A stretch of 64,000 nucleotides of DNA from Lentzea tibetensis (lineage in GTDB: Bacteria; Actinomycetota; Actinomycetes; Mycobacteriales; Pseudonocardiaceae), in the NCBI RefSeq assembly GCF_007845675.1, contig NZ_VOBR01000008.1, positions 186,001 to 250,000 of the forward strand, read 5' to 3'. The notes under the pieces were generated by a model. The model saw only the letters and a list, made by a program, of their open reading frames with translations. It did not search any database and was not told where the DNA came from. Positions 13,187-47,225 of the stretch are shown here, in pieces; the stretch's first letter is position 1, and every line of letters begins with the position of its first letter. The translations under genes were made by a program, and so were the position numbers.

Positions 13187-13193
13187 GAGCAGA

Positions 13194-14144: not shown

Positions 14145-14153
14145 GGTCGCCGG

Positions 14154-15812: not shown

Positions 15813-15821
15813 CTTGGCCCC

Positions 15822-17561: not shown

Positions 17562-17579
17562 TCCAGCAAGATGGGATGC

Positions 17580-18764: not shown

Positions 18765-18776
18765 CCGTGCTTCGAG

Positions 18777-18814: not shown

Positions 18815-18937
18815 GGGTCGGCTGTTCGCGCGCCGAATTGTCGGTGCTCGCTGGGAGAATGAAAGTCAGGGGTTCCCCCGGCGGGGACGCCTGCGCGAGC
18901 ACGGCCCGAGCGGTTTCCGCCCGGCTAGTCTCCGGCT

Positions 18938-19687
18938 GTGCTGAGCGAACTCCTGCGCGCGGTCCCGCTGCCGCCGGGCCGGATCGTCCACGCCACCGAG
19001 GGTGCGCCCGCGTTCTGGCTCAGCGACGACCCCGTCGACGCCGCCCTGTGGCGACGACTGGACCACGACGGGCTGTGGCCGCTCGTGCTGACCACGTCCG
19101 AGGTCGACGATCCGGGCCGTCCGTGGGCGTCCGGCGAGGTCTGGCACGCCGGGAACACCGCACCCGAGAACCACGACCCCGAGCAGCTGATGGCCGGCTG
19201 GTGGCACGGCCTGGCCGAGCCTGATCCCGACGAGGAAGAACTGGTCACCGATCCGTTCGGCAGGCAGTGGCCTGGGCTCGCTCCCCCACACCCGCAGCGG
19301 CACGACCCCGGCGAGGCGGCCTCGCGGCTGGCGGAGAGCCTGATGACCGAACGGGCGCGGCTGGGTCTGGTCGCAGCGCGGCGCGGATCCGACGCGCTGG
19401 TGGCGATGGGGTGGAAGGGGCCGACCAACTACGTCAGCGACATCGGCAGGCTCGCCTCGGTGCTGCGGTCGTGGGAGGACCGGTTCGGCGCGCGCGTGGT
19501 CGGGCTGGAGAGCCACGCGTTGCTGCACGTGAGCGTGGCCGCGCCGCCGGTGGACCACGAGCAGGCGCTGCGGGTCGCGGCCGAGCACTTCACGTTCTGC
19601 CCGGAGAACGTCCGCACCAGCTCGACCATCGGCGACTACGCCGAAGAACTCGTCGGCAGCACCGAATGGGGATTCTGGTGGGACTAG
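18938..19687 (+). CDS. DUF4253-domain protein
   Basis: A 249-aa cytoplasmic protein. The C-terminal third carries the DUF4253 landmarks: ALVAMGWKGPTNY, SVLRSWEDRFGARVVG, HVSVAAPPVDHEQALRVAAEH and the terminal YAEELVGSTEWGFWWD. These proteins are common in actinobacteria, often near immunity genes of polymorphic toxins, but their activity is not established. The GTG start at 18938 has no strong ribosome-binding site. Family call secure, function unknown. Confidence 0.85.
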   Translation: MLSELLRAVPLPPGRIVHATEGAPAFWLSDDPVDAALWRRLDHDGLWPLVLTTSEVDDPGRPWASGEVWHAGNTAPENHDPEQLMAGWWHGLAEPDPDEEELVTDPFGRQWPGLAPPHPQRHDPGEAASRLAESLMTERARLGLVAARRGSDALVAMGWKGPTNYVSDIGRLASVLRSWEDRFGARVVGLESHALLHVSVAAPPVDHEQALRVAAEHFTFCPENVRTSSTIGDYAEELVGSTEWGFWWD

Positions 19688-19688
19688 G

Positions 19689-20321
19689 TCAGATGCGGCG
19701 GGAGATCGTCGGGTAGTCGACGACGATGCCGGTCGCGTCGACGGTGATGTCCTGGTCGAACTCGCCGCTGGTGAAGTTGACGACCGACCCGGTGTCGCCG
19801 ACGGACACCGTGCGGTAGCTCTGCCGCACCGCGCTCACCGTCAGGTCCGGCAGGGTCACCTTCACGACGGGCAGGTCGTGCTCGCCCGGCTCGCGGTGCA
19901 ACCCGAGCCTGCGGATCGGGATCGCGTTGAACAGCACGGAGAACTGCACGTCCACGTCCAGCGCGCCGTCGAACGTCGCGCGTTCGGCGCCCTTGCCGTG
20001 GTCGACGAGCCACGCGCCGTCCTCGCTGCGGGCGATGGAGACCTGACGCTCCTCCTCGACCGTGGCCGTGCGCAGCAGCACCCGTTTCACCTGGCCACCC
20101 TCACCGACGGACAGCTCGAAGGAAGCGCTGAACTGCTCCCTCGGCCCCGCGGCGACGAGTCTGCCGGACGCGCGGAGCCGTTTGTCCGGCGAGAGCAGGA
20201 GTCTCACCTGCTCCAGCCGCGGCTCGGCGTAGCCCTGCCAGGTGACCATTTCGGGCCTGCGTGCGGCAGGACGGGCCTCCCCGCTGGGGGCGACCCGTTC
20301 GGCCGTGTTCGAGGAGTTCAC
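19689..20321 (-). CDS. Putative glycolipid-binding family protein
   Basis: A 210-aa protein matching the glycolipid-binding family (PF06475) by its core VTWQGYAEPRLEQVRL, the beta-rich middle and the end FDQDITVDATGIVVDYPTISRRI. The GTG at 20321 directly abuts the stop of the upstream antitoxin-like gene, implying coupling. An ATG at 20249 lacks a ribosome-binding site but begins at the conserved core, so it is the alternative start. Predicted to be a soluble beta-barrel. No signal peptide; ligand unknown. Confidence 0.75.
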   Translation of the reverse strand: MNSSNTAERVAPSGEARPAARRPEMVTWQGYAEPRLEQVRLLLSPDKRLRASGRLVAAGPREQFSASFELSVGEGGQVKRVLLRTATVEEERQVSIARSEDGAWLVDHGKGAERATFDGALDVDVQFSVLFNAIPIRRLGLHREPGEHDLPVVKVTLPDLTVSAVRQSYRTVSVGDTGSVVNFTSGEFDQDITVDATGIVVDYPTISRRI

Positions 20322-24098: not shown

Positions 24099-25304
24099 TC
24101 ACGCGACAAGTTCGGTCGCCGCGACCGGCCTGATGTCGCCGGGGCGCAGGGAAGTGCCGCGCAGGCACAGTTCCCGCGCGGCCGGTCGGTGGCCGGTGAG
24201 AATCCATTTCACGAGCGCCGCGAGCTGGTGCGCGATGAGCGGCGGAACCGCGTCGCCGACGTGCCGGTAGGCGTTGCCGAGTATCGAAACGTCGAACTTG
24301 AACGAACGCGGAAATCCCTGGAGAAGTGCCATTTCCCGGACCGTGCACAGGCGGTTCTGCACGGGGTGCGCGTACCGGCCGTTGCCGACGTGCGCGCATT
24401 CGCGCTTGATCGTGCGCGCGGGCTCGTCCCACCACATCCGCCCGTAGACGTCGGGGTGCGAACCCCACCGCCCGGCTTCGACGATCTTGAGCTGGGCGGG
24501 GTTGAGCAGCTGCTCGGTGTCCGGTGACCGGAGCAGGTCCGCCCACGAGCCGCCGTCCGCGGGGATCGCGCGCATGCGGTCCATCGTGCGGTCCTGGGTG
24601 AACCGCGGTGACACGTGGATCGGGTCTTCCGCGTGCGCCTCGCCCGCCTCGATCACGGGCAGCTTGCTGATCGCGCGGCGCACGGTGACCGCGTTCTCGC
24701 GGATCTCCCTGCCGTCCCACAGGTCTTCCATCGTGAGCAGCGGCAACCCGGTGTCGACGGCGACCATCAGCGACCGCTCGCGCAGCTGCGGCAGCCCGAA
24801 GCGGGAGAACATGTGCGTGTCGCCGCGCACCTGGTAGCCGATGCGGGTCAGCTCGTCCGCGAGCCGCTCGAAGTGGTGCCGCTGCTTGCCCTTGACGAGC
24901 TCGCGCGCGTTCTCCAGCAGCACGACCTTGGGCCGCAGCTCCTCTGCGTAGACGGCGATGCGCCCGACGAGCGAGTTGCGCGGGTCGTCGCGCAGGTGGT
25001 TGGCCGCGGTGATGCGGCTGAAGCCGGAGCACGGCGGGCACGCGAGCAGCACGTCGAGCTGGCCTCTGCGCAGGCCCCACACCTCGCGCAGGGCGGACGG
25101 CGACACGGTCGCGAGGTCGACCTCGAGCGGGTTGATCCCGATGTTCGCGTGGTAGGTGTCGTTGCAGCGCAAGGAGCCCAGTCGCGACGACGGCTTCCCG
25201 ATCTGCGCATCGGCGGCCCCGACCACGCGGAAGTCCCGGTGGGCGTGGAAGCCGTAGCTCATGCCGCCGGCTCCCGAGAAGATGTCGGCCACCGTGTAGG
25301 ACAC
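24099..25304 (-). CDS. Orphan DNA (cytosine-5)-methyltransferase
   Basis: A 401-aa m5C methyltransferase. Motif I is DIFSGAGGMS, motif IV carries the catalytic cysteine in CPPCSGFS (C92), motif VI is ENAREL, motif VIII QLRERS, motif IX REMALLQGFP and motif X VGDAVPPLIA. The start at GTG 25304 is favoured because TACGAT lies 6 nt upstream, as for a leaderless transcript; GTG 25343 would add 13 residues. No restriction endonuclease is adjacent, so it may act in regulation or self-protection. Target sequence unknown. Confidence 0.9.
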   Translation of the reverse strand: MSYTVADIFSGAGGMSYGFHAHRDFRVVGAADAQIGKPSSRLGSLRCNDTYHANIGINPLEVDLATVSPSALREVWGLRRGQLDVLLACPPCSGFSRITAANHLRDDPRNSLVGRIAVYAEELRPKVVLLENARELVKGKQRHHFERLADELTRIGYQVRGDTHMFSRFGLPQLRERSLMVAVDTGLPLLTMEDLWDGREIRENAVTVRRAISKLPVIEAGEAHAEDPIHVSPRFTQDRTMDRMRAIPADGGSWADLLRSPDTEQLLNPAQLKIVEAGRWGSHPDVYGRMWWDEPARTIKRECAHVGNGRYAHPVQNRLCTVREMALLQGFPRSFKFDVSILGNAYRHVGDAVPPLIAHQLAALVKWILTGHRPAARELCLRGTSLRPGDIRPVAATELVA

Positions 25305-25366
25305 GGCTTGATCGTACGGCTGCGCCAACCGGGCGAAGACCACGACATCCCGTAGCGTTCTCGCGC

Positions 25367-33886: not shown

Positions 33887-34705
33887 TCAGCCGAGGACGG
33901 TCTCGCAGCTGACGAAGGTCGGGCCACCCGTGCAGGTGTCGGTGTTCGCGCCGCCGTTGACCGTGTTGGTGTGAGCGCCACCCTCGAGGTTGTCGTCACC
34001 GTTCTCGCCCAGCAGGGTGTCGTTGCCGTTGAAGCCGCGCATGTGGTCGTTGCCGTCGCCACCGCGCATGGTGTCGTTGCCGGAGTCGCCCCACATGTAG
34101 TCGTTGCCCTGCTGGCCGTCCATCTCGTCGTTCTTCGAACCGCCGTACATGTCGTCGTCGCCGCCACCGCCGACGATGAAGTTGCCGGACGTGTTGTCGG
34201 CGATCGTGCGGTGACCACCGAACAGGGTGTCGTTGCCCTGGTTGCCGTAGACCCGGTCGAAGTCGCTGCCGCCCTCGACGACGTCGTTGCCGTTCTGGCC
34301 GGCGAGCAGGTCGTCGCCCGTGCCGCCCAGGATGAGCATCGGGATCCACACGCTGTGCACGCGAGCGTCGACGATGTCGTCGCCACCGGCGGTGTAGATG
34401 CTGATCGACGCGATGCCCGCGCCCCCGCACCGCACGACGGTCTTGTCGTGGCCCGGCATCCAGGAGCAGCCGTTGCCCGGCGCGAGGTCGACGATGTCGT
34501 CGAACCAGTAGAAGCCGGCGTCCTGGGTCACCTCGAGGTTGTTGTTGGCGCCACCGCTCGCGATGTACGCGATCTGGTTGCCGGAAGTGCTGACCGTTGC
34601 ACCGGCCGCGGCATGAGCCGTGCCGACGCTGACCAGGGCAGCCGCGGAGACGACGGTCGCGACAGCGCCGGCCTTCAGAGCGGCAACTCGCAGGTTCTTC
34701 AACAT
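33887..34705 (-). CDS. Secreted RTX-like calcium-binding repeat protein
   Basis: A 272-aa precursor with a Sec signal (LRVAALKAGAVATVVSAAALV ... AHAAA, cleavage about residue 32). The C-terminal half is made of nonapeptide repeats of the GGxGxDxxx type (GGTGDDLLAGQNGNDVVEGG, GNQGNDTLFGG, GGDGNDHMRGFNGNDTLLGE), which form a calcium-loaded parallel beta-roll. A final pair of Cys (TCTGG...SCETVLG) could make a disulfide. Exported by Sec rather than by a type I system. Start ATG 34705 chosen for the signal; the frame is open further upstream. Role probably at the cell surface; ligand unknown. Confidence 0.85.
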   Translation of the reverse strand: MLKNLRVAALKAGAVATVVSAAALVSVGTAHAAAGATVSTSGNQIAYIASGGANNNLEVTQDAGFYWFDDIVDLAPGNGCSWMPGHDKTVVRCGGAGIASISIYTAGGDDIVDARVHSVWIPMLILGGTGDDLLAGQNGNDVVEGGSDFDRVYGNQGNDTLFGGHRTIADNTSGNFIVGGGGDDDMYGGSKNDEMDGQQGNDYMWGDSGNDTMRGGDGNDHMRGFNGNDTLLGENGDDNLEGGAHTNTVNGGANTDTCTGGPTFVSCETVLG

Positions 34706-34884
34706 AAGACGGTCTATCCCCTCGCTGAGGCGCAAGGCCTCACTTTGATTTCCGCACACCCTCTGTGCGTCGAAACCAATTCGAGTGGGCCTCACCACAC
34801 GCCCGCCACACCACATCCACAGTGGACGAAACTTCTGTGTTCCTTGCGCCATAAGGCCTATGCGCCTCGCGCACATGCAGAAAC

Positions 34885-35466
34885 CTAACTCGCGGTTGAC
34901 GAATCGTCGTCCGCCGAGTGCTTGCTCTCCAGGTACCTCCGGCGCCTCTCTTCGTACCTCTGGTGCTGGGCTTCCTCCCATTCGTCGATGGTGGCGTAGT
35001 GGGTACCGGTGTACCGCCGTTCGAGGTACGCGACGAACGCGAGGCGGTCCGCGTCATCGATGAGCACGAGCCTGTGTTCGGCGCGGGACCGCTCACCCAG
35101 GTCCAGCAGGTAGCCACCGCCGGGCTGGGGAACGCACCGGATCAGGCCACCACGTCCTGGGTGGCCGGCGTTCGTGTGCGCGCTCTTGACGTACAGGTGG
35201 AACCAGTCCTGGTCTTCCCACTCGCGGATGTAGTCCACCCACTCGCGGAACCGCTGCTCCTGCCACCACACATCCATGCTGGCGAACTTGTCGCCGCAGT
35301 ACTGACGCTCGAGGTAGGTCACGAACGCGACGCGTTCCGCGTCGTCGGCGAGGACCCACTCTTCACCGAGCTCCAAGCCGCCCGCGGCCGCGATCTGGTA
35401 AGCCCGGTAGATGGCCATGTGACCCTGAGTGCGCTCGAGTTGGTCGGCGCAGGCACGTAAATCCAC
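34885..35466 (-). CDS. Hypothetical protein with internal duplication
   Basis: A 193-aa cytoplasmic protein from GTG 35466; an ATG at 35418 is an alternative. Two halves repeat the same unit, DDAERVAFVTYLERQYCGDK (residues about 41-60) and DDADRLAFVAYLERRYTGTH (about 136-155). Each is followed by a Trp/Glu helix (MDVWWQEQR; IDEWEEAQH). The duplication, with many aromatic and charged residues, suggests a two-domain binding protein. I do not recognise the family. It lies just outside the left end of the second AICE. Confidence 0.65.
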   Translation of the reverse strand: MDLRACADQLERTQGHMAIYRAYQIAAAGGLELGEEWVLADDAERVAFVTYLERQYCGDKFASMDVWWQEQRFREWVDYIREWEDQDWFHLYVKSAHTNAGHPGRGGLIRCVPQPGGGYLLDLGERSRAEHRLVLIDDADRLAFVAYLERRYTGTHYATIDEWEEAQHQRYEERRRRYLESKHSADDDSSTAS

Positions 35467-35597: not shown

Positions 35598-35640
35598 GCG
35601 CGCTCGGCAGGATTCGAACCTGCAACCTTCTGATCCGTAG
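35598..35640. repeat. attL, 43-bp direct repeat of the tRNA-Arg 3' half
   Basis: These 43 bases are identical to 47152-47194 and cover the tRNA-Arg(ACG) sequence from the anticodon loop to the discriminator base plus one C. The identity ends sharply on both sides, marking the left junction of the element. The rest of 35641-35926 holds arm-type repeats and an 8-bp inverted repeat (GTCAAGGC at 35813 and 35831), but no gene I can support. Confidence 0.93.
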
Positions 35641-36818: not shown

Positions 36819-37925
36819 ATGCGGGATTCACCATGGGCGATCAGCAGGTTCGATGAGGCGTTGCTCGAACTGCTGGGCCAGGGTCAGAAGCACCTGTCGC
36901 TGGCGGACGCGGTCGATGCTATCGGTATTGAATCAGGCGAGCAGATCAATGTCGAAACCATCCTCGCCGAATCGAACAGCCCACTGGAGTCACTTCTCCC
37001 TCGCGCGCTTTCAGGTACCGAAAAAGACCGACGCGGAGTGCAGCACTTAGAAATCGTTGACAACCGCGGAAGTTTTGTAATTTCTGCCTGGCCAACGGCC
37101 CACAGAGGCGTCTTCCATCTGGCAGCAACCACGCCTTTTACCGATCCTCGGTGGCAGAAGGTTGAGCGCTGGATCGGACGCGCCAATCCCGAGGTTGTCC
37201 CATGCTTCCTAAACCATGCCGACTTCATCGACATCGGTAGGGCCCTGAGCGAAATTGGCGACGCAGAAGTCAGCCGCCTTACGGCACGCAACCTAGTCGA
37301 TCAATCGTCCCTTGGCCGCAGTTGGAAAAGTAGGTCTGACGGCCTACGTCTCTCCCCTCTCGAAGCCATCGCCGAAGTTGAAGCCAACCATGCATCCGTA
37401 CGCACAATGACAATGCGGGTCGGTCAACTTCTTTCGCTGCACCTTCGTAGGCTTGCAGGAGCAACGTTTTATTCGGGCAACTTCACCGCCTTCGATGATG
37501 TCGTACTGTCTCGTCTTGCCAAGGCTGGCGCGACGCGCAGAAGCCTCATGGCAAACCGGCACAGACGAGTGGGAAAGCCAGTCGGAACGCCAATATCAGT
37601 GAAGCTTCCAGGCGCTTTCCTTGGCACAGAAATCGACACGTCCGAAGTTCTTGAAACTTTGGAAGAACTCAGTCAGGTCAGCGTTGCAGTTCTACACCGA
37701 AACCCCTATCTGCATGTAGTCGTAACCGACTACTCAGATGGATCAAACTTCGATCTGTTTGTCACCGACGCAGATTCGATCGATATCTACCCAGGTTTTC
37801 GAGCAAGCCGCGGATCTTTGACTCGACTTAGCCAGCGACTTGGCGAAAGGTTCCTCGCAACAGATATCTCCGATGCGGCCGAAGACGACGAGGTCTCTCT
37901 CGACGACCTAGTGGCAAGCAGGTAG
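36819..37925 (+). CDS. Unrecognised cargo protein, first gene of a candidate defence cassette
   Basis: A 368-aa soluble protein with no family I recognise. The N-terminal third is helical (ALLELLGQGQKHLSLADAVDAI). The middle contains beta strands ending FVISAWPTAHRGVFHLAATT. The C-terminal half has a basic segment, GATRRSLMANRHRRVGKPVG, and strands VAVLHRNPYLHVVVTDYSDG, with an acidic tail EDDEVSLDDLV. GC is visibly lower than in neighbouring genes and codon 77 is TTA, rare in this genome type. It ends 4 nt before the next gene, so they form one operon. Cargo position and composition suggest recent acquisition; a defence role is inference. Confidence 0.6.
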   Translation: MRDSPWAISRFDEALLELLGQGQKHLSLADAVDAIGIESGEQINVETILAESNSPLESLLPRALSGTEKDRRGVQHLEIVDNRGSFVISAWPTAHRGVFHLAATTPFTDPRWQKVERWIGRANPEVVPCFLNHADFIDIGRALSEIGDAEVSRLTARNLVDQSSLGRSWKSRSDGLRLSPLEAIAEVEANHASVRTMTMRVGQLLSLHLRRLAGATFYSGNFTAFDDVVLSRLAKAGATRRSLMANRHRRVGKPVGTPISVKLPGAFLGTEIDTSEVLETLEELSQVSVAVLHRNPYLHVVVTDYSDGSNFDLFVTDADSIDIYPGFRASRGSLTRLSQRLGERFLATDISDAAEDDEVSLDDLVASR

Positions 37926-37929
37926 CCAC

Positions 37930-39051
37930 GTGGCGGCGAAGGACGAAAAGACCGCGAATTGTGAGAGAAAGCTACTCGAAGACTTCGCCACCTACGATCA
38001 GCACGTTGATGTCGTGTCAGCCTTCGAATGGATGTTTACCGACCCAAACGTTAAGTCGTTGCCGTCGACGGTAAAACATTTCGAACGCTTCCCCAAGATT
38101 AAAGTTTCAAATACGTTGACGCTTACCCCAGATTTTACCGTGCTTTTTGCAGACAATACGGCAATTGTTGGCGAGATAGCCAAGTTTGCAACGCATGAGA
38201 ACAGTGTAGATAAGCTTTGCAAGCAACTCGCGAACTACGACACACTACCAGGAATCCCGGCTGGGGCCGGGAAGCTAGCAAAGGCTTCTCATGCCGACGT
38301 AATGCAGATCGTCAGTATGAGGTTAGGCCCACAAGCCGTTCAGCGCATCATCATTGATAGACTAAGGAATCCCGACCACCCATACAAGCCTTCACACGCT
38401 CCTGTCATAGTTCAGTACGCGCGCGAAGACCAGACCTACATGTTCCAGAGGGTACTCCGTAAGGAGAATGGCAGCCTTCATTGCAATGAACGTCAGCCAA
38501 ACATTGGCGACTACCTTGACGAGGGCCTTAATATCTCCGCATCACGGTTCGTGAAGATAAAGTCCGCACGTGCGCTGATCAATGACCAAGCAGATCGCCT
38601 GTACTTGGCCACACATCTATGGGCAAAGACATGGCCTACGGCTTACGGCGTCGGCACTAGTGACATCTCGATCAACCCTGCCGACACAGCAGTTCTTCTC
38701 CGTAAACACCACGGCGTCGGCACCGCTAACGATGTTAGACGCGCGTTGGAGTTGCTCGAAAGCGCAGGACTCGCAGCCAAGGAACCTGAGGGTAGGTGGC
38801 TGATCTCTCGAAAGTTACTTGGACGAAGCGGAAAAAGAGAGGTCCATTCGATCATAGCCCGCCGGGCATGCCAGCCTGATGCGCCGAAGACGGTATCTGC
38901 AAAGCGGCGCAGAAGCCGGCATACAACCCTAGGGCAGGGCAGCTTGTTCGAATTGCCATTCGAGCCCGAGCCCGAGCCCGAGCCTATTCTCGAACTGCCA
39001 TCAAAACCGATTTTGGCAATAGAAGGACCGTCACGGGAGGCTAGCGAGTAG
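37930..39051 (+). CDS. Candidate PD-(D/E)xK-like nuclease with winged helix, second gene of the cassette
   Basis: A 373-aa protein from GTG 37930. Residues about 60-104 read as a restriction-endonuclease-like core: TPDFTVLFADN (P67-D68), a strand then GEIAKF (E82, K85), and a following helix KQLANYD with Q99. The E-to-K spacing is one residue longer than the textbook ExK, so catalysis is not assured. Residues about 248-298 (PADTAVLLRKHHGVGTANDV ... RRALELLESAG) look like a winged helix. The tail is basic, then Glu/Pro-rich (EPEPEPEP). Codon 132 is TTA. Its 3' end overlaps the HAD gene by 21 bp. Confidence 0.6.
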   Translation: MAAKDEKTANCERKLLEDFATYDQHVDVVSAFEWMFTDPNVKSLPSTVKHFERFPKIKVSNTLTLTPDFTVLFADNTAIVGEIAKFATHENSVDKLCKQLANYDTLPGIPAGAGKLAKASHADVMQIVSMRLGPQAVQRIIIDRLRNPDHPYKPSHAPVIVQYAREDQTYMFQRVLRKENGSLHCNERQPNIGDYLDEGLNISASRFVKIKSARALINDQADRLYLATHLWAKTWPTAYGVGTSDISINPADTAVLLRKHHGVGTANDVRRALELLESAGLAAKEPEGRWLISRKLLGRSGKREVHSIIARRACQPDAPKTVSAKRRRSRHTTLGQGSLFELPFEPEPEPEPILELPSKPILAIEGPSREASE

Positions 39052-39738
39052 TAGCGCGATGCTCGTTACAATGGCAATCGGAGACCGGTTGGCGAACAAC
39101 TCGATCTTGCCGGGTTTGTTGGCGTACCCAATCACCAGCACACCGGAATCATGGGCGGCCTGAATGTCAGTCAGCGAGTCGCCCACGAGGGTACATTCCG
39201 CCGCAGCAATCCCCAGAGCATCGCTCGCCTGACGAAGTAGGAATGTACTCGGCTTCAATAGTGAGGGGTCAGGCTCAGTGCGCGCAGATACGTAACTGAC
39301 GTGGGGAGCCAATCCGTGAAGGTGAAGGTATTCCTCAACCGCGGCAGCACTGTTGTTGCTGACGATGGCCAGTTTCCGACCGTCAGAATGCCATGCACGG
39401 ACGAGATCATGAGCACCGAAAGTGGGCTCAGCAGTCGCAATCGCCTCGACTTCATGAGCTCGCAATGCGGCCTCTACGTAGCGCGCTTCCTCACTGCCCA
39501 GAGTGGACGCGAAGGTTAAGATATCGAACGGATCATCGGTCTTCTGAACTGCGAAGGGAAGATCATGGCATGCACCCTCTGCGAGAACTTCGCGAAGTTG
39601 TTCAGCTACGACAGGGGCGGGAAAACCTGCGAAAACTGAACAGATAGGACCGTCAAAGTCCAGCAGAAGCGTTTTCGTGTCGGCCAAGATGCGATGAATT
39701 ATCGAAGGATCGTCCACCGACACGCGGCTGCTCGTCAC
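39031..39738 (-). CDS. HAD-superfamily hydrolase coupled to the AICE GntR regulator
   Basis: A 235-aa phosphatase-like protein. Motif I is LLLDFDGPICSVF (D27, D29), with the usual T after DG replaced by P. Motif II is IVSNNSAAA, the motif III lysine lies in LLKPSTF and motif IV is GDSLTDIQAA. The GTG start overlaps the regulator's stop (GTGA), implying coupling; an in-frame ATG at 39783 lies inside the regulator gene. Substrate unknown. HAD or Nudix enzymes near AICE regulators can modulate transfer or clean up metabolites; that role is inferred. Confidence 0.8.
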   Translation of the reverse strand: MTSSRVSVDDPSIIHRILADTKTLLLDFDGPICSVFAGFPAPVVAEQLREVLAEGACHDLPFAVQKTDDPFDILTFASTLGSEEARYVEAALRAHEVEAIATAEPTFGAHDLVRAWHSDGRKLAIVSNNSAAAVEEYLHLHGLAPHVSYVSARTEPDPSLLKPSTFLLRQASDALGIAAAECTLVGDSLTDIQAAHDSGVLVIGYANKPGKIELFANRSPIAIVTSIALLLASLP

Positions 39739-40577
39739 CGCTGGTACTCCGTTGAGACCGTGCTCCACATGGAGTCGAACCACATGCGGGCTTGCTCGAC
39801 GTACTGACTGCCAGTGCTGGTGTCGTCGTCGGTGACGCTGTGGTGGAAGAGGATGGCTTCCTTGCCCACCAGGTCGTAGATCGGCTTGGGCTCTCCGTCG
39901 AAGCGGATCACGTGCTCACGAACCGGGTAGAAGCCGAAGAAGGCTTCCTCGTTGTTGAGCAGGTAGAGCTTGAACAGCGGTGCTGCCCTGTGAACCTTGA
40001 TCTCCGCGGAGACGTCCTTCACCAGGCCTAGGTCTCCGAGCTCCTGAACGTTGTCGATGATCGAGAGGGTGTGGCGGCGCATGATCTCGTCCATGCGCTT
40101 GCGGAAACCTGGGCTGTCCTGCAAGTCATCGACCTGGCAGGGAATCGACCACGGCTGAGATGTGTCCGGGACGAGCATCCGAATGTTGATCGAGGCGGGT
40201 GTCAGCCGGCCGATTCGGATCTTGTCCAGCGGCTCCTGCATGACACCTTGAAGTGTCTCGCCAGAGAAGCCTGCGAAGTCGATCGACACGTGCTCGGCGT
40301 CGAAGGCGCGCTCGATGTGCGGACGCAGGCCGACCGGGCGCTCGGTGCGCTCGCGGACGAAGACGCCGCTGCCCTGTCGGGAGACGATCAGGCCTTCGTC
40401 GCGCAGTTCGCGCAGGGCGTTTTGCACGGTCATCGGTGCGACTTCGTACTTCTTCGCCAGCTCGGCGCGTGAGGGGAGCTTGTCCCCCGCCTTGAAGACC
40501 TTGGTCAGGATGGCGGCCCGCAGAGCGTTCGCCACCTGCACATACGGCGGTCGCGGGTCATCCGGGTCCAGCGCCAT
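39735..40577 (-). CDS. GntR/HutC-family transcriptional regulator (KorSA-like)
   Basis: A 280-aa repressor. The winged helix is at residues about 10-75 (PPYVQVANALRAAILTKVF, LPSRAELAKKYEVAPMTVQ, NALRELRDEGLIVSRQGSG, then GVFVRE). The C-terminal effector domain continues to about 270. GAGGAGG lies 6 nt before ATG 40577. In pSAM2 the GntR protein KorSA represses transfer and replication genes. Here the gene is divergent from the transfer operon across a region with a 13-bp inverted repeat and CTAGCC repeats, its likely operators. Effector unknown. Confidence 0.85.
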   Translation of the reverse strand: MALDPDDPRPPYVQVANALRAAILTKVFKAGDKLPSRAELAKKYEVAPMTVQNALRELRDEGLIVSRQGSGVFVRERTERPVGLRPHIERAFDAEHVSIDFAGFSGETLQGVMQEPLDKIRIGRLTPASINIRMLVPDTSQPWSIPCQVDDLQDSPGFRKRMDEIMRRHTLSIIDNVQELGDLGLVKDVSAEIKVHRAAPLFKLYLLNNEEAFFGFYPVREHVIRFDGEPKPIYDLVGKEAILFHHSVTDDDTSTGSQYVEQARMWFDSMWSTVSTEYQR

Positions 40578-40601
40578 TGCCTGCCTCCTCTGGTGTCTCG
40601 C

Positions 40602-40637
40602 GACTTGCGACTCGCGGTAAGGCACGAGTCGCAAGTC
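40602..40637. promoter_or_regulatory. 13-bp perfect inverted repeat, candidate GntR operator
   Basis: GACTTGCGACTCG (40602-40614) and CGAGTCGCAAGTC (40625-40637) are perfect complements with a 10-bp spacer, so half-site centres are 23 bp apart, about two helical turns. It lies 25 bp upstream of the regulator gene. Confidence 0.7.
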
Positions 40638-40650
40638 AGGTTACCCAGTG

Positions 40651-40754
40651 TTGTCTAGCCCGCCTAGTGAGCTAGCTCGATTGAACTTGCCTCGCCAGCC
40701 GCTTGACTTGTCTAGCCAACCTGGCTTACCTTCTACTTGGCTAGCCCGGCTAGC
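40651..40754. repeat. Cluster of CTAGCC-type repeats before the transfer operon
   Basis: TTGTCTAGCCCGCCTAG (40651-40667), TTGTCTAGCCAACCTGG (about 40709-40725) and TTGGCTAGCCCGGCTAG (about 40738-40754) share a core, with further GCTAGC between. The form resembles HutC-type GntR operators (GTnTAnAC). The cluster covers the probable promoter of the gene at 40773. Confidence 0.6.
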
Positions 40755-40772
40755 GAAGTTGCGGAGGTTGTC

Positions 40773-41249
40773 ATGGCTGTTCCGTACGGCACGCGCTTCA
40801 ACGCCGTGTTTGACCAGGTGTTTCCCATGGGTGCGCTGATGGTCGGTGAGGTCGCCCCGGACATGGAGTACATGAGCCAGGAGGACAAGGCCCGCGGTAA
40901 GCAGGCCAAGCAGAAGATCGACGAACGTTCGGGCAAGCGGCAGTGGAAGGTCGTCGTCACGGACCCGTCTGCCGAGAAGGAACGGGACGCCTCCGTCACG
41001 ATCACCGTGCTGGCGGACGTCCAGCCTGTTCCACCGCAGGCCGTGCAGGTCATGCCCGGTGTCGAAGTGCGGCCGGTCGCGTTCGAAGGGCTGACTGTCG
41101 AGCCGCGCGTCATGGGGGACCGGTTCAAGTACCAGGGCTTCATCGTCCGGGCCATGGCCATCAGCTCGCCGCAGGTCGGCACGCCGCCGAAGCGCGAGAG
41201 CAAGCCTGCGGGTCAGCAGGGTCAGAACGAGCAGAAGCCGGCGGCCTGA
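40773..41249 (+). CDS. SCO3933-family AICE regulatory/accessory protein
   Basis: A 158-aa protein that opens the rightward AICE operon, with GGAGG 6 nt before the ATG. It is beta-rich (VLADVQPVPPQAVQVMPGVEV, RPVAFEGLTVEPRVMG, FKYQGFIVRAMAI), with a Gln/Lys-rich tail. This layout matches the small SCO3933-type proteins that occupy the same place in many Streptomyces AICEs. Its biochemical role is not established. Position next to the operator region suggests control of transfer genes. Confidence 0.65.
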   Translation: MAVPYGTRFNAVFDQVFPMGALMVGEVAPDMEYMSQEDKARGKQAKQKIDERSGKRQWKVVVTDPSAEKERDASVTITVLADVQPVPPQAVQVMPGVEVRPVAFEGLTVEPRVMGDRFKYQGFIVRAMAISSPQVGTPPKRESKPAGQQGQNEQKPAA

Positions 41250-41251
41250 GG

Positions 41252-41521
41252 GTGGCGCGGCCGTCGCGTGAGGCGGTCGCTCGCTGGAACACCGCGTATG
41301 CGGAGCAGACAGCAGCGTTGTTCGCCGCGTCCAGCACGGGCGATCAGCAGGCGCTGCTCCGGCTCGCTCTTGGCTACTCGGCCGTGGCGCAGGCGTGGCG
41401 GATCTTGGCCGCTGATCTGGCGGTGCCTTTGTGGGCTCGCCATGCCTGCTCCATCGCTGCGGAGGAGTTCGAGCGGCGCGCGCGGTTGGAGCTCTCCCGA
41501 ACTGAGGACGAGGAACAGTGA
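41252..41521 (+). CDS. Small AICE hypothetical protein
   Basis: An 89-aa helical protein from GTG 41252, 2 nt after the preceding stop, with an Ala/Arg-rich composition (SREAVARWNTAYAEQTAALF, LAVPLWARHACSIAAEEFER). No domain recognised. Its stop overlaps the next ATG, so it belongs to the same tightly packed operon and is likely to be translated. Confidence 0.6.
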   Translation: MARPSREAVARWNTAYAEQTAALFAASSTGDQQALLRLALGYSAVAQAWRILAADLAVPLWARHACSIAAEEFERRARLELSRTEDEEQ

Positions 41522-41769
41522 TGCTCAAGCTGATGGTGTCGCCGGGGCCGAACGCCAAGGCGGAGGTCGTGCCCTGGCCCGCGGTGACCTACGCGTACTG
41601 CCTGCGGCTCCATCTCGATCCTTCGATGATCGTTATCCACATGCCGGAAGGGCCTGACGCGCAGAAGGAGATGGCCGCTTTCCTGCGGTCGCTGGCCAAT
41701 GAGGCCGGACTTCTCGCTCTGGTGCTCGATCCGCGTCCGGAGAACCTGCCCGGTCAACGGGAGGCGTGA
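41521..41769 (+). CDS. Small AICE hypothetical protein
   Basis: An 82-aa mixed alpha/beta protein (LKLMVSPGPNAKAEVVPWPA, then AAFLRSLANEAGLLALVLDP). Start and stop both overlap neighbours by 1-4 bp. It has no membrane segment or cysteine cluster and I do not recognise the family. Operon position suggests a transfer or replication accessory role. Confidence 0.6.
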   Translation: MLKLMVSPGPNAKAEVVPWPAVTYAYCLRLHLDPSMIVIHMPEGPDAQKEMAAFLRSLANEAGLLALVLDPRPENLPGQREA

Positions 41770-41960
41770 CGAAGCTACGGCTGCTGGCGCGGTTCAGGTA
41801 CGCGATGGGCTGGACCGCGGTGCATCCGATGACTCGTCGCGTGCGGATGGAGTGGCGGAACTGCACACGCTGCCTGGGCGGCGGCTGGTTCCGCAGCAAC
41901 GAGAAACGGCCGCTGTGCTCCTGGTGCAAGGCGCTGAATCGGCGGCTCGGCCAAGGCTGA
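41766..41960 (+). CDS. Small zinc-ribbon protein
   Basis: A 64-aa very basic protein from GTG 41766 with a four-cysteine zinc ribbon: CTRC, 16 residues, then CSWC. Short zinc-ribbon proteins of this kind recur in AICE operons and are likely nucleic-acid or protein binding. Overlaps the preceding gene by 4 bp. Specific role unknown. Confidence 0.65.
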   Translation: MTKLRLLARFRYAMGWTAVHPMTRRVRMEWRNCTRCLGGGWFRSNEKRPLCSWCKALNRRLGQG

Positions 41961-42093
41961 TCGACAACTGAAGAAACCGTGTTGGTGTGTCGCGCGGGAA
42001 ACAGTCCAAGTCTTGGCGGGCTCGACTGTTCCCCGGCGACTTACACCGACTCGAACGACCCTGAAATCGTTGGGACACAAGGAGATTCGAGTC

Positions 42094-42300
42094 ATGCAGA
42101 GCGTATCCGCTCTCCGGGGGAGCGCGTCAACTCGACGCTATCCGCCAGGTGGTTGGAAGTTGCGCAATGGCCGCAAGTGCCAGCGCTGCAAGCGGTTCGG
42201 CGTGTTCGCGCCTGGACAGATCAGGTGCTGCGCCTGCCTCGGGTGGTTGTCGCTGATCTTCGTCAACGTCGTGGTCATCAACTGCGGCGGTGAGCGATGA
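42094..42300 (+). CDS. Small zinc-ribbon protein with hydrophobic tail
   Basis: A 68-aa protein with AAGGAG upstream of ATG 42094. The four-cysteine knuckle (CQRCKRFG ... CCAC) is followed by a hydrophobic stretch, LGWLSLIFVNVVVIN, that could insert in the membrane. Its stop overlaps the next ATG. The preceding 133 bp (41961-42093) hold no gene and probably a second promoter. Function unknown. Confidence 0.6.
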   Translation: MQSVSALRGSASTRRYPPGGWKLRNGRKCQRCKRFGVFAPGQIRCCACLGWLSLIFVNVVVINCGGER

Positions 42301-42551
42301 ACGCAGCAGAGAAGCAGGAGCTCTTCGCCAGGGTGGTTGCCAGCAAGCAGGCGGTGAGGACGTACGCCGTTCTTCTCGATGACGGGCAGCTCGTCAGTCT
42401 CGAACTGTCGGAAGCACAGGTCGAAGGCTTCGAGTGCATGACCTGCAAGACGTTGTGCACCTCCGGTCTCGGTGCGTTCCGGCCGGCCGGGCGCGTCCTC
42501 AACGTGGGCACCGTCTTCCAGTGCGTTGCTTGCACGGGCGGTGCGCGATGA
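42297..42551 (+). CDS. Small cysteine-knuckle AICE protein
   Basis: An 84-aa protein beginning AAEKQELFARVVASKQAVRTY. Four cysteines are arranged as CMTC ... CVAC plus one internal Cys, typical of a zinc ribbon. Overlaps both flanking genes by 4 bp, directly upstream of the translocase gene, so likely co-translated with it. No specific family recognised. Confidence 0.6.
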   Translation: MNAAEKQELFARVVASKQAVRTYAVLLDDGQLVSLELSEAQVEGFECMTCKTLCTSGLGAFRPAGRVLNVGTVFQCVACTGGAR

Positions 42552-44020
42552 GCGGAACCAAGTGGGTCGATCCTGCACCGTTCGAAGGTGCCCGTCCGCG
42601 GTTTCCCTGGTGGGTGTGGCTGCCCAACTGGGCGAAGGTCGCGGCGGCTCCGTTCGTCCTGCTGTGGCTGCTGGCACGGCTGGCCGTACGTCTGGTCCTC
42701 GTCGTGGTCCGCTACCCCGTCTCAACGCTTCTGCCGCTCAGCGGCTACGTGTTCTACCTCCACTTCGGCCTGTCGCCACTGGTGCTGGCGCTGCTGGCTC
42801 TCACGGCTGCGTTGGTGCTCTGGTGCGGCCTCGACCGGACATCGTTCCTCCGGCTCGGGTGGCACCGACTGCTGACCGAATGGCGGCGGGCAACGGTGTA
42901 CGTACCGCAGTGGCGGACGGTCATGCGGCTCGCTGACCTCGCCAAGGAGAACCGGGGCAAGGAGTACCGCCCGAAACTGCGTCGCGTCCGGTCCGAGGGT
43001 TGGCGGGACAAGGTGCGGGTCCGCATGATCCCCGCCCAGTCCCCGGAGCAGTGGGAAGCGCGGAGGGACAACCTGGCGCACTCCTTCAACTCGAAGTCAT
43101 GCCGGGTGCGGGTGCTCAAGCCTCGGGTTCTCGAACTCGACTTCATCCACTCAGACCCGCTGACACGTCCTGTGGCCGTTCCGCAGCTGTCGGACTCGAC
43201 TGAGGTTGACCTCAAGAAGGTGGTCGTCGGCCGAACCGAGACCGGAAAGCCTTGGCGGCTGCGTCTCCTCGGCTCACAGGTTCTTGTCGTCGGTGTGCCT
43301 GGCGCGGGCAAGGGCTCGGTGCTGTGGTCGATCGTCTGGCAGCTGGCACCCGCTATCCGTGCTGGCCTCGTCCGGCTCGTCGGCATCGATCCCAAGGGCG
43401 GCATGGAGCTGGGCCAGTGCCCGGACGCCTTCGACAAGGTCGTCTACGACAACGGGGCGGACGCCGTCGAACTGCTCGAGGAAATCGCGGCGGAGGTCAA
43501 GGAGCGGGCCTCGCGATACCGGGGCATCCGTCGACTGTGGGCACGCTCGACCGGTGAGCCGTTCACCGTCCTGGTGGTCGACGAGCTGGCAGACCTCGTC
43601 GCGTACCAGCAGGACAAGCAACTGCGCGAACGTGCCACCCGCGCAATCCAGACGATCACCTCGCAGGGACGGGCACCCGGCTACGCCGTCGTCGGCCTGG
43701 TGCAGGACCCGCGCAAGGAGGTCGTGAGCTTCCGGCACCTGTTCACCACCCGTGTTGCCCTGCGCCTCGACGAACCGCAGCAGGTCGACATGGTGCTGGG
43801 CGACGGCGTACGGCAGCGGGGCGCGGCTGCTCACGAGATCAGCGAGAACACACCCGGTGTCGCCTGGCTCAAGGAGGACGGGCAACGGGAACCGGAGCGA
43901 GCAAGGGCCTTCCATGTCACGGACGCGGACCTGGTTGAGCTCGGTCTGTTCTTCGCCAAGGCCACAGTCCATGACCTCCCCGGTCGACCTGGCGGCAACG
44001 AAGGGAGCGCGGCGGCATGA
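42548..44020 (+). CDS. traSA: TraSA-like FtsK/SpoIIIE DNA translocase
   Basis: A 490-aa transfer motor. An N-terminal membrane region (residues about 30-100, AAAPFVLLWLLARLAVRLVL and two further helices) leads to the ATPase with Walker A GVPGAGKGS (249-257), Walker B LVVDELADL (D345, E346) and QTITSQGRAPGYAVVGLVQDP. It is shorter than the translocase of the first AICE (746 aa) and not closely similar outside the motor. Expected at hyphal contact sites, pumping the double-stranded element. Overlaps repSA by 4 bp. Strong family call. Confidence 0.9.
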   Translation: MSGTKWVDPAPFEGARPRFPWWVWLPNWAKVAAAPFVLLWLLARLAVRLVLVVVRYPVSTLLPLSGYVFYLHFGLSPLVLALLALTAALVLWCGLDRTSFLRLGWHRLLTEWRRATVYVPQWRTVMRLADLAKENRGKEYRPKLRRVRSEGWRDKVRVRMIPAQSPEQWEARRDNLAHSFNSKSCRVRVLKPRVLELDFIHSDPLTRPVAVPQLSDSTEVDLKKVVVGRTETGKPWRLRLLGSQVLVVGVPGAGKGSVLWSIVWQLAPAIRAGLVRLVGIDPKGGMELGQCPDAFDKVVYDNGADAVELLEEIAAEVKERASRYRGIRRLWARSTGEPFTVLVVDELADLVAYQQDKQLRERATRAIQTITSQGRAPGYAVVGLVQDPRKEVVSFRHLFTTRVALRLDEPQQVDMVLGDGVRQRGAAAHEISENTPGVAWLKEDGQREPERARAFHVTDADLVELGLFFAKATVHDLPGRPGGNEGSAAA

Positions 44021-45648
44021 ACGCAGCCATCCCCACTCTCCCCGCCGATGTTGGAGCACAGACCCGCGCGGAACGGATGAGACAGCCCGCGGCTATCGAC
44101 GTCGCCAAGGCTGCTGCTGAGCAGCACGGAGTCTGCGTCCGGCCGTTCACGATGGAGGTCGAGGATCACGAGACCTTCGAGATCCGCTACGTCGCGGTGC
44201 CGTGCGGCTCGACGGTCGAGAGCGTGTGCGCACCCTGCGCCAAGAAGGCCAAGGCGTTGCGGATGACCCAGTGCCGTGAGGGCTGGCACATGGAGGTCGA
44301 GCCGGACTTCACGCCGGAACCTCCGACCAAAGACCAGACAGAGCTGCTGACATACCGAGCTGACCTGATGAAGGCGTACCAGGAGGAGGGCAACTCTCCA
44401 GAAGCCGACGAGCTGCGAGAAGAGATCCACAGCGTCGACGCGGAACTTCGGCAACTCGGCGTTCGTGGTCGGCTGCCCTCGCCGGACGACCCCGGCAAGC
44501 GGCCGGTGAAGCGCTCGACGAAGCGTCGGCAGGATGCGCCGGAACTTCCTCGGCGGCGGGTGGAGAAGCGGACGATCGGGCGGGAGTTCGCCGGCGCGTT
44601 CCGGCCGTCGATGTTCGTGACGCTCACGCTCGACACCTACGGGCGGGTGCACGAGGACGGCACGCCCGTTGATCCGGACCGCTACGACTATCGCCGTGCC
44701 GCTCGGGACGCGGTGCACTTCGCGTCGCTGGTCGACCGGTGGTGGCAGAACCTGCGGCGGGCAGTCGGGTGGGACGCCCAGTACTTCGCCACGGTCGAGC
44801 CCCAGAAACGGGCTGCTCCGCACCTGCACGCGGCGATCCGCGGTTCGATCCCGCACGACGTGATCAGGCTGGTCACGGCGGCTACCTACCACCAGGTGTG
44901 GTGGCCCAACCACGACGAGCGGATCTACTTCGGCAACGAGCTGCCGGTCTGGGACGGCAAGGCGGAAGCGTTCGTCGACCCGGACACCGGCAAGGCCTTG
45001 TCCACTTGGGATGACGCCGAGGTCGAGGAACCGGCGCACGTCGTCACCTTCGGCCGCCAGGTGCACTCCAAGGGCATCCTCGGCGGCTCGGAGGAGTCCG
45101 GGCGGCACATCGGCTACCTGACCAAGTACCTCACGAAGTCCATAGGTGAGGTGATCGAGCAAGACACCGACCGGCAGCGCAGGCACGCGGACCGGCTGGC
45201 AGACGAGCTCGCCGTCACCCCGTGCTCGGAGCGGTGCCCGGTGTGGCTGCTCTACGGCGTCCAGCCTCGCGGGGCCAACTCGCGGATGACTGCGGGGCGC
45301 TGCAAGGGAAGGGCGCATCGGCGGACCACGCTCGGGCTGCCTGGACGGCGGGTGCTCGTCTCGCGGAAGTGGTCGGGCAAGACGCTGGCCGATCACCGGG
45401 CGGACCGGAAGCGGTTCGTCGTCCAGGCGCTTGCTGCGGTCGGCATCGAGAAGCCGGTGAAGGACACGTCGCGGCTGGTCTGGCACAAGGTCCGGCCTGG
45501 TGACCCGAACGTGCCTCCGAGGGCGCACCTGCTCATGCATGCCATCGCCCAGCGGGTCACGTGGAGAGCCGAATACGACCGCGCGATGCTCGCGGCCGGC
45601 TGCTCTCCCCCAGACCCGATTGTTTCGGCAACTCCGCTCGCGGCTTGA
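44017..45648 (+). CDS. repSA: RepSA-like rolling-circle replication initiator
   Basis: A 543-aa initiator of the pSAM2 RepSA family. The HUH metal motif is in APHLHAAI (H269, H271). Candidate catalytic tyrosines lie in YLTKYLTKS (Y367, Y371). An N-terminal CAPCAKKAKAL cysteine pair and the late CSERCPVW pair may bind zinc. It nicks the origin of the excised circle to start rolling-circle replication; in pSAM2 the origin lies within or near repSA. Family and motifs clear. Confidence 0.9.
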   Translation: MNAAIPTLPADVGAQTRAERMRQPAAIDVAKAAAEQHGVCVRPFTMEVEDHETFEIRYVAVPCGSTVESVCAPCAKKAKALRMTQCREGWHMEVEPDFTPEPPTKDQTELLTYRADLMKAYQEEGNSPEADELREEIHSVDAELRQLGVRGRLPSPDDPGKRPVKRSTKRRQDAPELPRRRVEKRTIGREFAGAFRPSMFVTLTLDTYGRVHEDGTPVDPDRYDYRRAARDAVHFASLVDRWWQNLRRAVGWDAQYFATVEPQKRAAPHLHAAIRGSIPHDVIRLVTAATYHQVWWPNHDERIYFGNELPVWDGKAEAFVDPDTGKALSTWDDAEVEEPAHVVTFGRQVHSKGILGGSEESGRHIGYLTKYLTKSIGEVIEQDTDRQRRHADRLADELAVTPCSERCPVWLLYGVQPRGANSRMTAGRCKGRAHRRTTLGLPGRRVLVSRKWSGKTLADHRADRKRFVVQALAAVGIEKPVKDTSRLVWHKVRPGDPNVPPRAHLLMHAIAQRVTWRAEYDRAMLAAGCSPPDPIVSATPLAA

Positions 45649-45663
45649 TCAATGGGGGATTCG

Positions 45664-45849
45664 ATGTCTGACAGGAACCAGCTTCTACCAGTGCAAACAG
45701 TCGCAGACCTGCTCTCGGTCAGCCGGTGGACCGTCTACCGCCTGATCTGGGACGGCTATCTGCATTCGGTTCAGGTGGGCCGTTGTCGACGTGTTCCGCA
45801 AGGCGCGTTGGACGCCTATCTCGGCGGACTGCTCGGGGAGGTGGCCTGA
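45664..45849 (+). CDS. xis: Excisionase (XisSA-like)
   Basis: A 61-aa helix-turn-helix protein, LPVQTVADLLSVSRWTVYRL then VGRCRRVPQGALDAYL. ATG 45664 is used; ATG 45652 in frame would add four residues. Its TGA overlaps the integrase ATG, so both are made together, as in pSAM2. It should direct the integrase toward excision. Clear family match. Confidence 0.9.
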   Translation: MSDRNQLLPVQTVADLLSVSRWTVYRLIWDGYLHSVQVGRCRRVPQGALDAYLGGLLGEVA

Positions 45850-47090
45850 TGGGTCGCAGGGCGAACGGCGAAGGGACGATCAAGCAGCGGAAGGACGGCC
45901 GGTACGAAGCGCAGGTCTTCGTCTGCACGCCTGAGGGCGAATGGAAGCGGAAGTGCGTCTACGGGAAGAGCTGGGAGGAGTGCAACGACAAGAAGATCGC
46001 GCTTCAGGACGCCAACCGGCGCGGTGTCCCAGTTGCTACGACCAAGCTCACCGTCGCGGAGTTCTTCGCCTACTGGGTGAAGGAGATCGCGGAGCCTTCG
46101 GTTCGTCGGACGACGTACAGCTCGTACGAGGGACTGACGCGGCTCTACATCGTTCCGGGCATAGGCAAGAAGAAGCTCAAGGAGCTGACGGCCCAGCACA
46201 TCCGCACGTGGCTCAACACGGTGAGCAAGACGTGCCAATGCTGCGCGCAGGGCAAAGACGTGAAATGGGCGGAGAAGGAAGGACGAGAAGCACGCTGCTG
46301 CGCCAAGAAGCCCAAGGAGTGCTGCAACAAGGTCCCGTCTTCGGCAAGCGTGCGGTACCTGCTCCGGCTGCTGCGTGCAGCGCTTCAAGACGCAATCGAA
46401 GAAGACCTGCTCACCCGGAATGTCGCGACTTTGGTCAAGCTGCCCAACAACGGGAAGCGAAAGCACAGGGCGTGGACTGCGCAGGAAGCGAAGAAGTTCC
46501 TCGCGACGGCCAAGGAGCACCGCCTGTACGCGCTGTGGGCGGTGGGTCTGAGCATCGGCCTACGGCGTGGTGAAGCGCTCGGTCTGCGGTGGGACGACGT
46601 CGACCTGGCCGGCCAGAAGGTCACCATCGCGCAGGCACTGCACCGGGTCGACGGGAAGTTGAAGCTCGACGAGGTGAAGACCGACTCGTCGGCGGCGACG
46701 ATCCCGCTACCCACTCCCCTGGTCGCCGTCCTCAAGCGACACAGGGCGGTGCAGGTGGGCGAACGGCTGGCAGCTGGCAAGCGTTGGCAGGACAGCGGTC
46801 TGGTCTTCACAACGCCCAAGGGCACACCGATCGAGCCGCGGAACATCAACCGCGCGTTCGAGGCGTTGTGCCACAAGGCGGGCGTCCGGGTCATCCGCGT
46901 CCATGACCTCCGACACTCGTGCGCGACGCTCCTCTTCGCCATGGGCGTCGATGCCGCGACGGTGCAACGGATCCTGCGGCACAGCTCGATCAGCGTCACC
47001 ACGGGCACCTACATCGAGGTGATCGAGAGCGTGCAGCAAGAAGCGGTCAACAAGATGGGTGTGTTCTTCGACGAAGCAGCCGAGAAGTGA
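45849..47090 (+). CDS. int: Tyrosine site-specific integrase (IntSA-like)
   Basis: A 413-aa tyrosine recombinase with R239 (LRRGEALGLRW), H352xxR355 (HDLRHS), the HSSISVTTGTY segment and nucleophile Y388. The core-binding domain is interrupted at residues about 125-160 by a cysteine-rich insert (CQCC ... CC ... CC, seven cysteines), probably a zinc-stabilised loop, known in other AICE integrases. The gene ends 62 bp from the tRNA-Arg target. It should recombine the 43-bp att core. Confidence 0.93.
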   Translation: MGRRANGEGTIKQRKDGRYEAQVFVCTPEGEWKRKCVYGKSWEECNDKKIALQDANRRGVPVATTKLTVAEFFAYWVKEIAEPSVRRTTYSSYEGLTRLYIVPGIGKKKLKELTAQHIRTWLNTVSKTCQCCAQGKDVKWAEKEGREARCCAKKPKECCNKVPSSASVRYLLRLLRAALQDAIEEDLLTRNVATLVKLPNNGKRKHRAWTAQEAKKFLATAKEHRLYALWAVGLSIGLRRGEALGLRWDDVDLAGQKVTIAQALHRVDGKLKLDEVKTDSSAATIPLPTPLVAVLKRHRAVQVGERLAAGKRWQDSGLVFTTPKGTPIEPRNINRAFEALCHKAGVRVIRVHDLRHSCATLLFAMGVDAATVQRILRHSSISVTTGTYIEVIESVQQEAVNKMGVFFDEAAEK

Positions 47091-47149: not shown

Positions 47150-47225
47150 TGGCGCGCTCGGCAGGATTCGAACCTGCAACCTTCTGATCCGTAGTCAGAT
47201 GCTCTATCCGTTGAGCTACGAGCGC
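47150..47225 (-). tRNA. tRNA-Arg(ACG) with encoded CCA
   Basis: The minus strand folds as a standard tRNA: GCGCTCG pairs with CGAGCGC, the anticodon loop CTACGGA gives ACG, and the T arm contains GGTTCGAAT. The discriminator G (47153) is followed by CCA (47152-47150). The last two bases of CCA come from the integrated element, not from the host. A34 is the expected substrate of TadA. Confidence 0.95.
47152..47194. repeat. attR, 43-bp direct repeat within tRNA-Arg(ACG)
   Basis: Identical to 35598-35640. Here it is part of the intact tRNA gene, covering its 3' half plus one C, and forms the right junction of the element. Confidence 0.93.

Follow-up and report, generated by a model that had tools for sequence, protein, structure and literature searches.

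What do two adjacent genes of no described family do in a mobile element of an actinobacterium, and do they do it together? The question is raised by a pair that we call A and B, which lies in the window (the whole stretch of DNA analysed here, 64,000 nucleotides of a Lentzea tibetensis contig), inside an 11,597-bp (11.6-kb) integrative element. A preliminary description, made from the sequence of the window alone, presented the pair as a candidate for an undescribed defence system, with a nuclease in B. We think that A and B may be two subunits of one mobile and rare system that acts on DNA at the sliding clamp, against invaders, and would put the probability of this reading at roughly 0.47. 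The best clue to how the pair works, missed in the preliminary description, is a clamp-type tail at the end of B; this tail, and its match to the clamp of each domain of life, are what is new in the present analysis. The features of the pair are the following, in window coordinates.

36819..37925, plus strand: gene A, 368 amino acids (aa), undescribed family, TBP/RdgC-like predicted fold
37695..37766, plus strand: most conserved block of A, residues 293-316 (HRNPYLHVVVTDYSDGSNFDLFVT), from 19 aligned rows
37893..37913, plus strand: conserved C-terminal tail of A, VSLDDLV, residues 359-365, from the row alignment
37930..39051, plus strand: gene B, 373 aa, GTG start; restriction-nuclease-like core, winged helix, disordered tail
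37975..38523, plus strand: PD-(D/E)xK-like core of B, residues ~16-198, from the AlphaFold model and structural matches
38128..38133, plus strand: P67-D68 of B, from the row alignment
38173..38175, plus strand: E82 of B, in 19/19 bacterial rows
38224..38238, plus strand: Q99-x3-Y103 of B, in 19/19 bacterial rows
38587..38829, plus strand: winged helix of B, residues ~220-300, from the AlphaFold model
38935..38949, plus strand: putative beta-clamp-binding motif QGSLF of B, residues 336-340, by the strict QxxLF pattern

A and B are a real two-gene module made of real genes. They had been placed correctly in the preliminary description (positions 36819-39051, with a gap of 4 nt, CCAC), homologues of both were found, and the stretch upstream of the ATG of A is purine-rich. 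B directly follows A in all 22 fetched related loci, in the five places found by the order search (own genome excluded), in the five plasmid records (six of these ten places are genomes or records already among the related loci) and in 9/9 later loci found through A. The two proteins have been inherited together: their distance matrices correlate with r 0.95 when all 24 loci are taken and 0.89 for the 17 bacterial loci alone, and none of 2000 permutations reached as high a value in either case. No other gene family recurs widely with them; sister and near-identical loci aside, the commonest is common to three loci, and some of the families at this level are AICE genes (from actinomycete integrative and conjugative elements). 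In these comparisons, the A of locus L022 (open frame of 538 aa with a GTG start, running into B) was kept out of the A alignments, L017 out of alignments A3 and A4, and L015, L028 and L033 (which duplicate, or nearly duplicate, other loci) out of A3, A4 and the later counts; L070, which is the genome of L030, was excluded from the final residue and tail counts.

Relatives of the pair were found in Actinobacteria, in haloarchaea and in one metagenome-assembled genome (MAG) of Thermoplasmatales, 21 loci coming from genome_contigs and one from IMG/VR. The spread is very patchy: in genome samples drawn from larger groups, the pair occurs in 5/397 genomes of the order and 2/396 of the phylum (own genome included in both), and in 8/242 haloarchaeal genomes (centre genome included), while the class sample of 394 genomes gave the own genome and one spurious match only. 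Five plasmid records carry it (two from Arthrobacter, three haloarchaeal). The pair of L034 (IMGVR_UViG_2919069694_000001) lies on a contig catalogued as viral. On plasmid pJ337-114 (L007:8858-9976), the annotated coding sequence corresponds to the last 114 aa of A, and the full frame of 372 aa is open.

The nature of B has to be read mainly from its predicted structure. B reaches no Pfam or NCBIfam cut-off and matches no PADLOC family at E<=1; both proteins have nothing more than weak partial matches in NCBIfam and PHROGs, of which a PHROG "transcriptional regulator" aligned to the winged helix of B ranks first (E 4e-4). Twenty aligned B members searched against Pfam at E<=0.1 likewise gave weak matches only, the best to GntR (4/20, E 0.004), and searches of PDB sequences with the A and B profiles returned nothing below E 0.1. 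The AlphaFold model of B (pLDDT, the model's own confidence score, 87.3) contains the elements H6-37, E48-53, E69-73, E77-83, H90-104 and E121-129 in this order, which is the alpha-beta-beta-beta-alpha-beta core of restriction-like nucleases. Its Foldseek matches over residues 13-198 are mostly to PD-(D/E)xK restriction-like nucleases, each of them weak. The C-terminal winged helix reported in the preliminary description is present in the model. We conclude that B is predicted to consist of a PD-(D/E)xK-like core and a winged helix, with structural matches that are weak.

The residues expected of an active site are well kept in bacteria. D68, E82, Q99 and Y103 are all intact in 19/19 bacterial rows, P67 is conserved too, and the resulting PD...E...QxxxY pattern is of the RecB type. 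K95, in the next helix of B, is present in 15/18 bacterial rows, and a regular EIK is found in the B of L009, L029, L031 and L072, all archaeal.

The tail of B (pLDDT ~45-62 in the window protein) follows a variable, low-confidence linker and comes down to a short motif. When QxxLF was scored strictly within the last 45 residues, it was found in 14/19 bacterial rows (9/13 clusters at 60% identity), and three further bacterial rows have or end in LF without the Q. The archaeal box, scored as Q-x-x-[LIM]-x-x-[FYW], was found in 8/14 archaeal rows (4/8 clusters). There is no cross-over between the domains, QxxLF being present in no archaeal row and the PCNA box in no bacterial row (last 12 residues). 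Among the neighbouring proteins at these loci (counted without any A or B and without near-identical loci), QxxLF occurs in 1/230 and the PCNA box in 0/80, and shuffled B tails gave a mean of 0.1 rows with the motif in each set. Earlier work gives QLxLF as a beta-clamp motif (PMC4549789), QxxLxxFx as the PCNA motif of Haloferax (PMC7776575) and QXXhXXaa as an archaeal PCNA motif (PMC4929162). B thus carries, in an exposed terminus, the QxxLF or QxxhxxF/Y by which sliding-clamp-binding proteins are recognised. The host's own NucS ends in EFRLF, much like the clamp-binding tail described for actinobacterial NucS (PMC8228993). Because the tail motifs are matched to the domain and nearly absent from neighbouring proteins, it is probable that B, like NucS, is anchored at the sliding clamp. 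In bacteria, intact nuclease residues (19/19) and QxxLF (14/19) go together. Beyond QGSLF, the window protein has 33 further, EPEPEP-rich residues (38950-39051), overlapping the next gene by 21 nt; most bacterial relatives stop at the motif or a few residues past it. Two of the B proteins of the haloarchaeal loci L073-L077 still end in a PCNA-box-like QPTIGEF/Y.

What would A contribute? The preliminary description could not assign A to a defence family, and this has held: A matches no PADLOC family at E<=1. As for a known non-defence family, a match to which that description had named as telling against its proposal, A, like B, reaches no Pfam or NCBIfam cut-off; A has no Pfam match at E<=1 either, 19 aligned A members gave none at E<=0.1, and a single weak PHROG match has E 0.29. 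In the most conserved block of A, H293, N295, P296, Y297, D304 and T316 are invariant in the 19 aligned rows. Foldseek with the AlphaFold model of A finds, over residues ~35-240, E. coli RdgC (probability 0.99-1.00), phage RdgC (1.00) and Iml3 (E 1.5e-5), with low template-modelling (TM) scores of 0.24-0.30 against the RdgC and Iml3 structures (E. coli RdgC 0.28-0.30) and a root-mean-square deviation of at least 5 Å. A is therefore modelled as having a TBP/RdgC-like fold, with weak structural matches, and the model shows an additional C-terminal TBP/KA1-like domain. The protein then ends in a conserved tail of its own, which is SLDDLV-like in bacteria ([VT][SNT][LIM]x[DE]L in 13/17 rows) and PCNA-box-like without the Q in archaea (h-x-[DEK]-[FY]-[FVL] in 12/14 rows); other proteins of the same loci have the bacterial pattern in 1/230 cases and the archaeal one in 0/80, counts that are descriptive only, since the patterns were written after the tails had been seen.

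The position of the pair in its carrier is as follows.

35598..35640, strand not assigned: attL-like 43-bp repeat, left boundary of the element, exact direct repeat
39031..39783, minus strand: HAD-like hydrolase of the element, convergent with B (3' overlap of 21 nt); context, outside the module
39735..40634, minus strand: GntR-type regulator of the element; context
47152..47194, strand not assigned: attR-like 43-bp repeat, right boundary, inside a tRNA-Arg gene (its 3' part)

Since the element encodes an FtsK-like protein, RepSA (E 1e-101) and a tyrosine integrase, it is an AICE; all that characterises such elements (att repeats at a tRNA gene, integrase, RepSA-type replication protein, FtsK/Tra protein) was found. 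The A-B pair behaves as cargo of this element. Its GC content is 0.544 against 0.648 in the rest of the element and 0.688 outside it, and GC is below that of the flanks in 20/22 loci, by a mean of 7 points. At E<=1e-4, neither A nor B is encoded in any of 11 other regions of 16.5-18.5 kb, picked by hand around related integrases; seven of these have an FtsK match, five a RepSA match and eight at least one of the two, and three have a RepSA 57-69% identical to that of the window. One of the 11, whose integrase is 63% identical, lies at a tRNA-Arg of identical anticodon, next to the same tRNA-Ser. The closest homologue found, at L013 in a Saccharothrix MAG (68% identical in A, 64% in B), accompanies the same AICE core (10001-19811 against window 36819-47087), with GntR, FtsK and RepSA 80-84% identical and the pair beside the same HAD and GntR genes, that is, in the same slot of two related AICEs. 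The integrase of L013 is only 38% identical to that of the window, which, with the core shared, looks like a swap of the integrase module. The cargo slot, the lower GC and the regulatory pair against which B ends were thus all described correctly from the outset.

The company that the pair keeps elsewhere is consistent with defence. Restriction or Hma-type genes are near it in 5/24 loci, by single-protein PADLOC scans or record annotation: a DNA methyltransferase and a helicase (annotation) and a type III methyltransferase (PADLOC tally) at L007, which is plasmid pJ337-114, an HmaB-like methylase at L009, a type I restriction subunit at L019 and at L022, and HmaC and HEC-05 at L026. When 20 large neighbours were scanned singly, eight matched at 1e-10; two of these eight matches are weak, and one is probably the FtsK gene of an AICE. 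A PADLOC tally (E<=1e-8) gave 151 families among 115 neighbour proteins against 7 among 111 control proteins, totals that are not counts of proteins, because families overlap, and that compare two sets not drawn by one identical rule: the neighbours were chosen by hand, mainly by size (117 of 186, of which 115 were scanned, an 1835-aa open reading frame being left out), and the controls come from 12 regions placed blind, by hand, in eight of the genomes that carry the pair. Among the first 25 families listed for the neighbours are IetA, ThsB, REase_I and MTase_III, and none of these kinds is found in the controls. Restriction, Hma, Iet and Thoeris genes are commoner around A-B than in the blind control regions.

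How could these observations be put together? In the reading that we favour, B would be a PD-(D/E)xK-type nuclease with a winged helix, whose flexible C-terminal tail would dock on the clamp of the host (beta or PCNA), and A would be a DNA-binding protein of TBP/RdgC-like fold. The part of A would probably be to recognise the target or to license cutting, and its own conserved tail may bring it into contact with the clamp or with B. Recruited to replicating DNA, the complex of A and B would there cut invading phage or plasmid DNA. A role against incoming DNA is favoured over core repair because the distribution is mobile, patchy and associated with defence. Defence is partly supported, by the sporadic spread, the mobile contexts, the low GC and the defence-rich neighbours. 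One may go further and imagine an immune system common to both domains that patrols replication, in which a clamp-riding complex with domain-matched tails inspects (A) and cuts or blocks (B) any DNA that loads the clamp, both subunits possibly being clamp-bound in archaea; we regard this wider version as tentative and, on balance, doubtful.

Several facts weigh against the reading that we favour. The lysine K85, which the preliminary description counted among the nuclease residues, is present in the window protein, lies one residue off the ExK register and is K in only 4/18 bacterial rows, and the proper ExK position is occupied by A or S in the bacterial rows. Of the 14 archaeal rows, 10 lack at least one member of the set D68/E82/Q99/Y103 and four keep it whole. 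At L073-L077, the pair is kept, but none of the five has E82 (three have D instead) and four of the five lack D68; the other five broken rows have lost E82, Q99 and Y103 jointly and retained D68, and this joint loss suggests that the three residues form one site. Moreover, the strict PCNA box is found in 7/10 of the broken archaeal rows against 1/4 of the intact ones (mostly on broken copies: L010, L011, L030, L032 and L071 against L009, L029 and L072), so the clamp tail may serve more than cutting. What our model chiefly leaves unexplained is that nuclease residues have decayed in haloarchaea although the pair, and in many cases the PCNA box, has persisted; that the broken copies block instead of cutting is one possibility. 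The preliminary description was right in what it observed and mostly right on the nuclease for bacteria (P67, D68, E82 and Q99, not K85), and its proposal of defence is plausible but unproven, with the neighbourhoods, mobility and patchiness on its side.

In another explanation, the pair helps its carrier element in replication, transfer or exclusion of kin by recruiting the host clamp or occupying it, nuclease activity being secondary or lost. This agrees with an archaeal PCNA box that is commoner on broken than on intact copies, and with the presence of the pair on one conjugative and one mobilisable plasmid and on AICEs, in two related members of which it occupies the same slot. Yet the 11 other regions around related integrases are without the pair, the three with a RepSA 57-69% identical among them; in addition, no replication or transfer gene recurs with the pair, whose loci include varied chromosomal contigs. 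We consider this explanation improbable. The pair could also be an accessory module of DNA repair or genome maintenance of mobile elements, that is, a clamp-tethered nuclease like NucS that acts on aberrant replication intermediates and not on invaders. NucS, too, occurs in Archaea and Actinobacteria, with a RecB-like core and a clamp tail at its C-terminus (PMC8228993, PMC4929162), and the type of tail and the motif register of B resemble it. All seven tested hosts of A-B already encode a NucS, however, the spread is very patchy, and the neighbourhoods are rich in defence genes, so that we hold a repair role to be rather unlikely.

Finally, the two might form a toxin-antitoxin-like or abortive infection pair, in which B would be a regulator that acts through its winged helix, its nuclease fold having decayed, and A would be the effector (a toxin or enzyme). 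The winged helix and the broken archaeal copies would fit this, but toxin-antitoxin pairs are usually smaller than two proteins of ~370 aa, the nuclease residues are kept throughout the bacterial rows, the match to RnlA spans residues 98-193 of the RnlA chain and not its C-terminal part, and a clamp-type tail is unexpected on a local repressor; we find it very unlikely.

Coming back to a clamp-tethered system directed against invaders, its nearest working analogue would be NucS/EndoMS, by analogy of design. It shares with B a RecB-like core with an E...Q-x3-Y register and a clamp-type C-terminal tail, whose partner in NucS is beta in Actinobacteria or PCNA in Archaea; B, too, is known from these two groups. 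NucS differs in having an N-terminal DNA-binding domain followed by a C-terminal nuclease, whereas the model of B has the nuclease-like core first and the winged helix after it; B further differs by this winged helix, by its constant partner A and by being mobile and rare instead of core. No homology with NucS is detectable: hhalign aligns GEIAK...QLANY with VEIKR...QLTRY over 31 columns at a probability of 0.8%.

Among PD-(D/E)xK defence nucleases, the SduA protein of Shedu gives the top Foldseek hit to B (E 3e-3, probability 0.85), and NucC, Card1, LmuA and McrC share a restriction-nuclease-like core with it; the differences are TM-scores, normalised on the query, of at most 0.25, no sequence family match and no PADLOC model for A. 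We know of no clamp tethering in SduA, NucC, Card1, LmuA or McrC. A resembles the RdgC and TBP-like folds (also CENP-L/Iml3) over the residues given above, and differs from RdgC by the lack of a sequence family match and by its further C-terminal TBP/KA1-like domain and conserved tail. The IS1634 transposases offer a parallel for the tail: according to PMC4549789, these mobile-element proteins have a C-terminal clamp motif that is QLxLF-like in bacteria and PCNA-box-like in archaea; they differ in being transposases, and neither A nor B was seen to share a family with them. None of the papers listed in the literature search (with preprints and most subscription papers outside it) describes, in its title or the opening of its abstract, a two-gene defence nuclease tethered to the clamp, and a term search of the main text of a survey of archaeal immunity (PMC12988326) returned no mention of "pcna" or "sliding clamp".

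If our reading is true, it would mean a new principle of defence, in which foreign DNA is found and cut, as it replicates, from the host's own sliding clamp. It would also mean that one and the same cassette occurs in both Bacteria and Archaea, its tail fitted to the clamp of each. The analysis also names two protein families without a Pfam model. Two genes in the surroundings of the element may be recorded: an RTX-type calcium-binding nonapeptide-repeat protein (PF00353) is encoded just beyond it (window 33887-34981, minus strand), and a C-5 cytosine DNA methylase (PF00145) ~10 kb to its left (window 24099-25343, minus strand).
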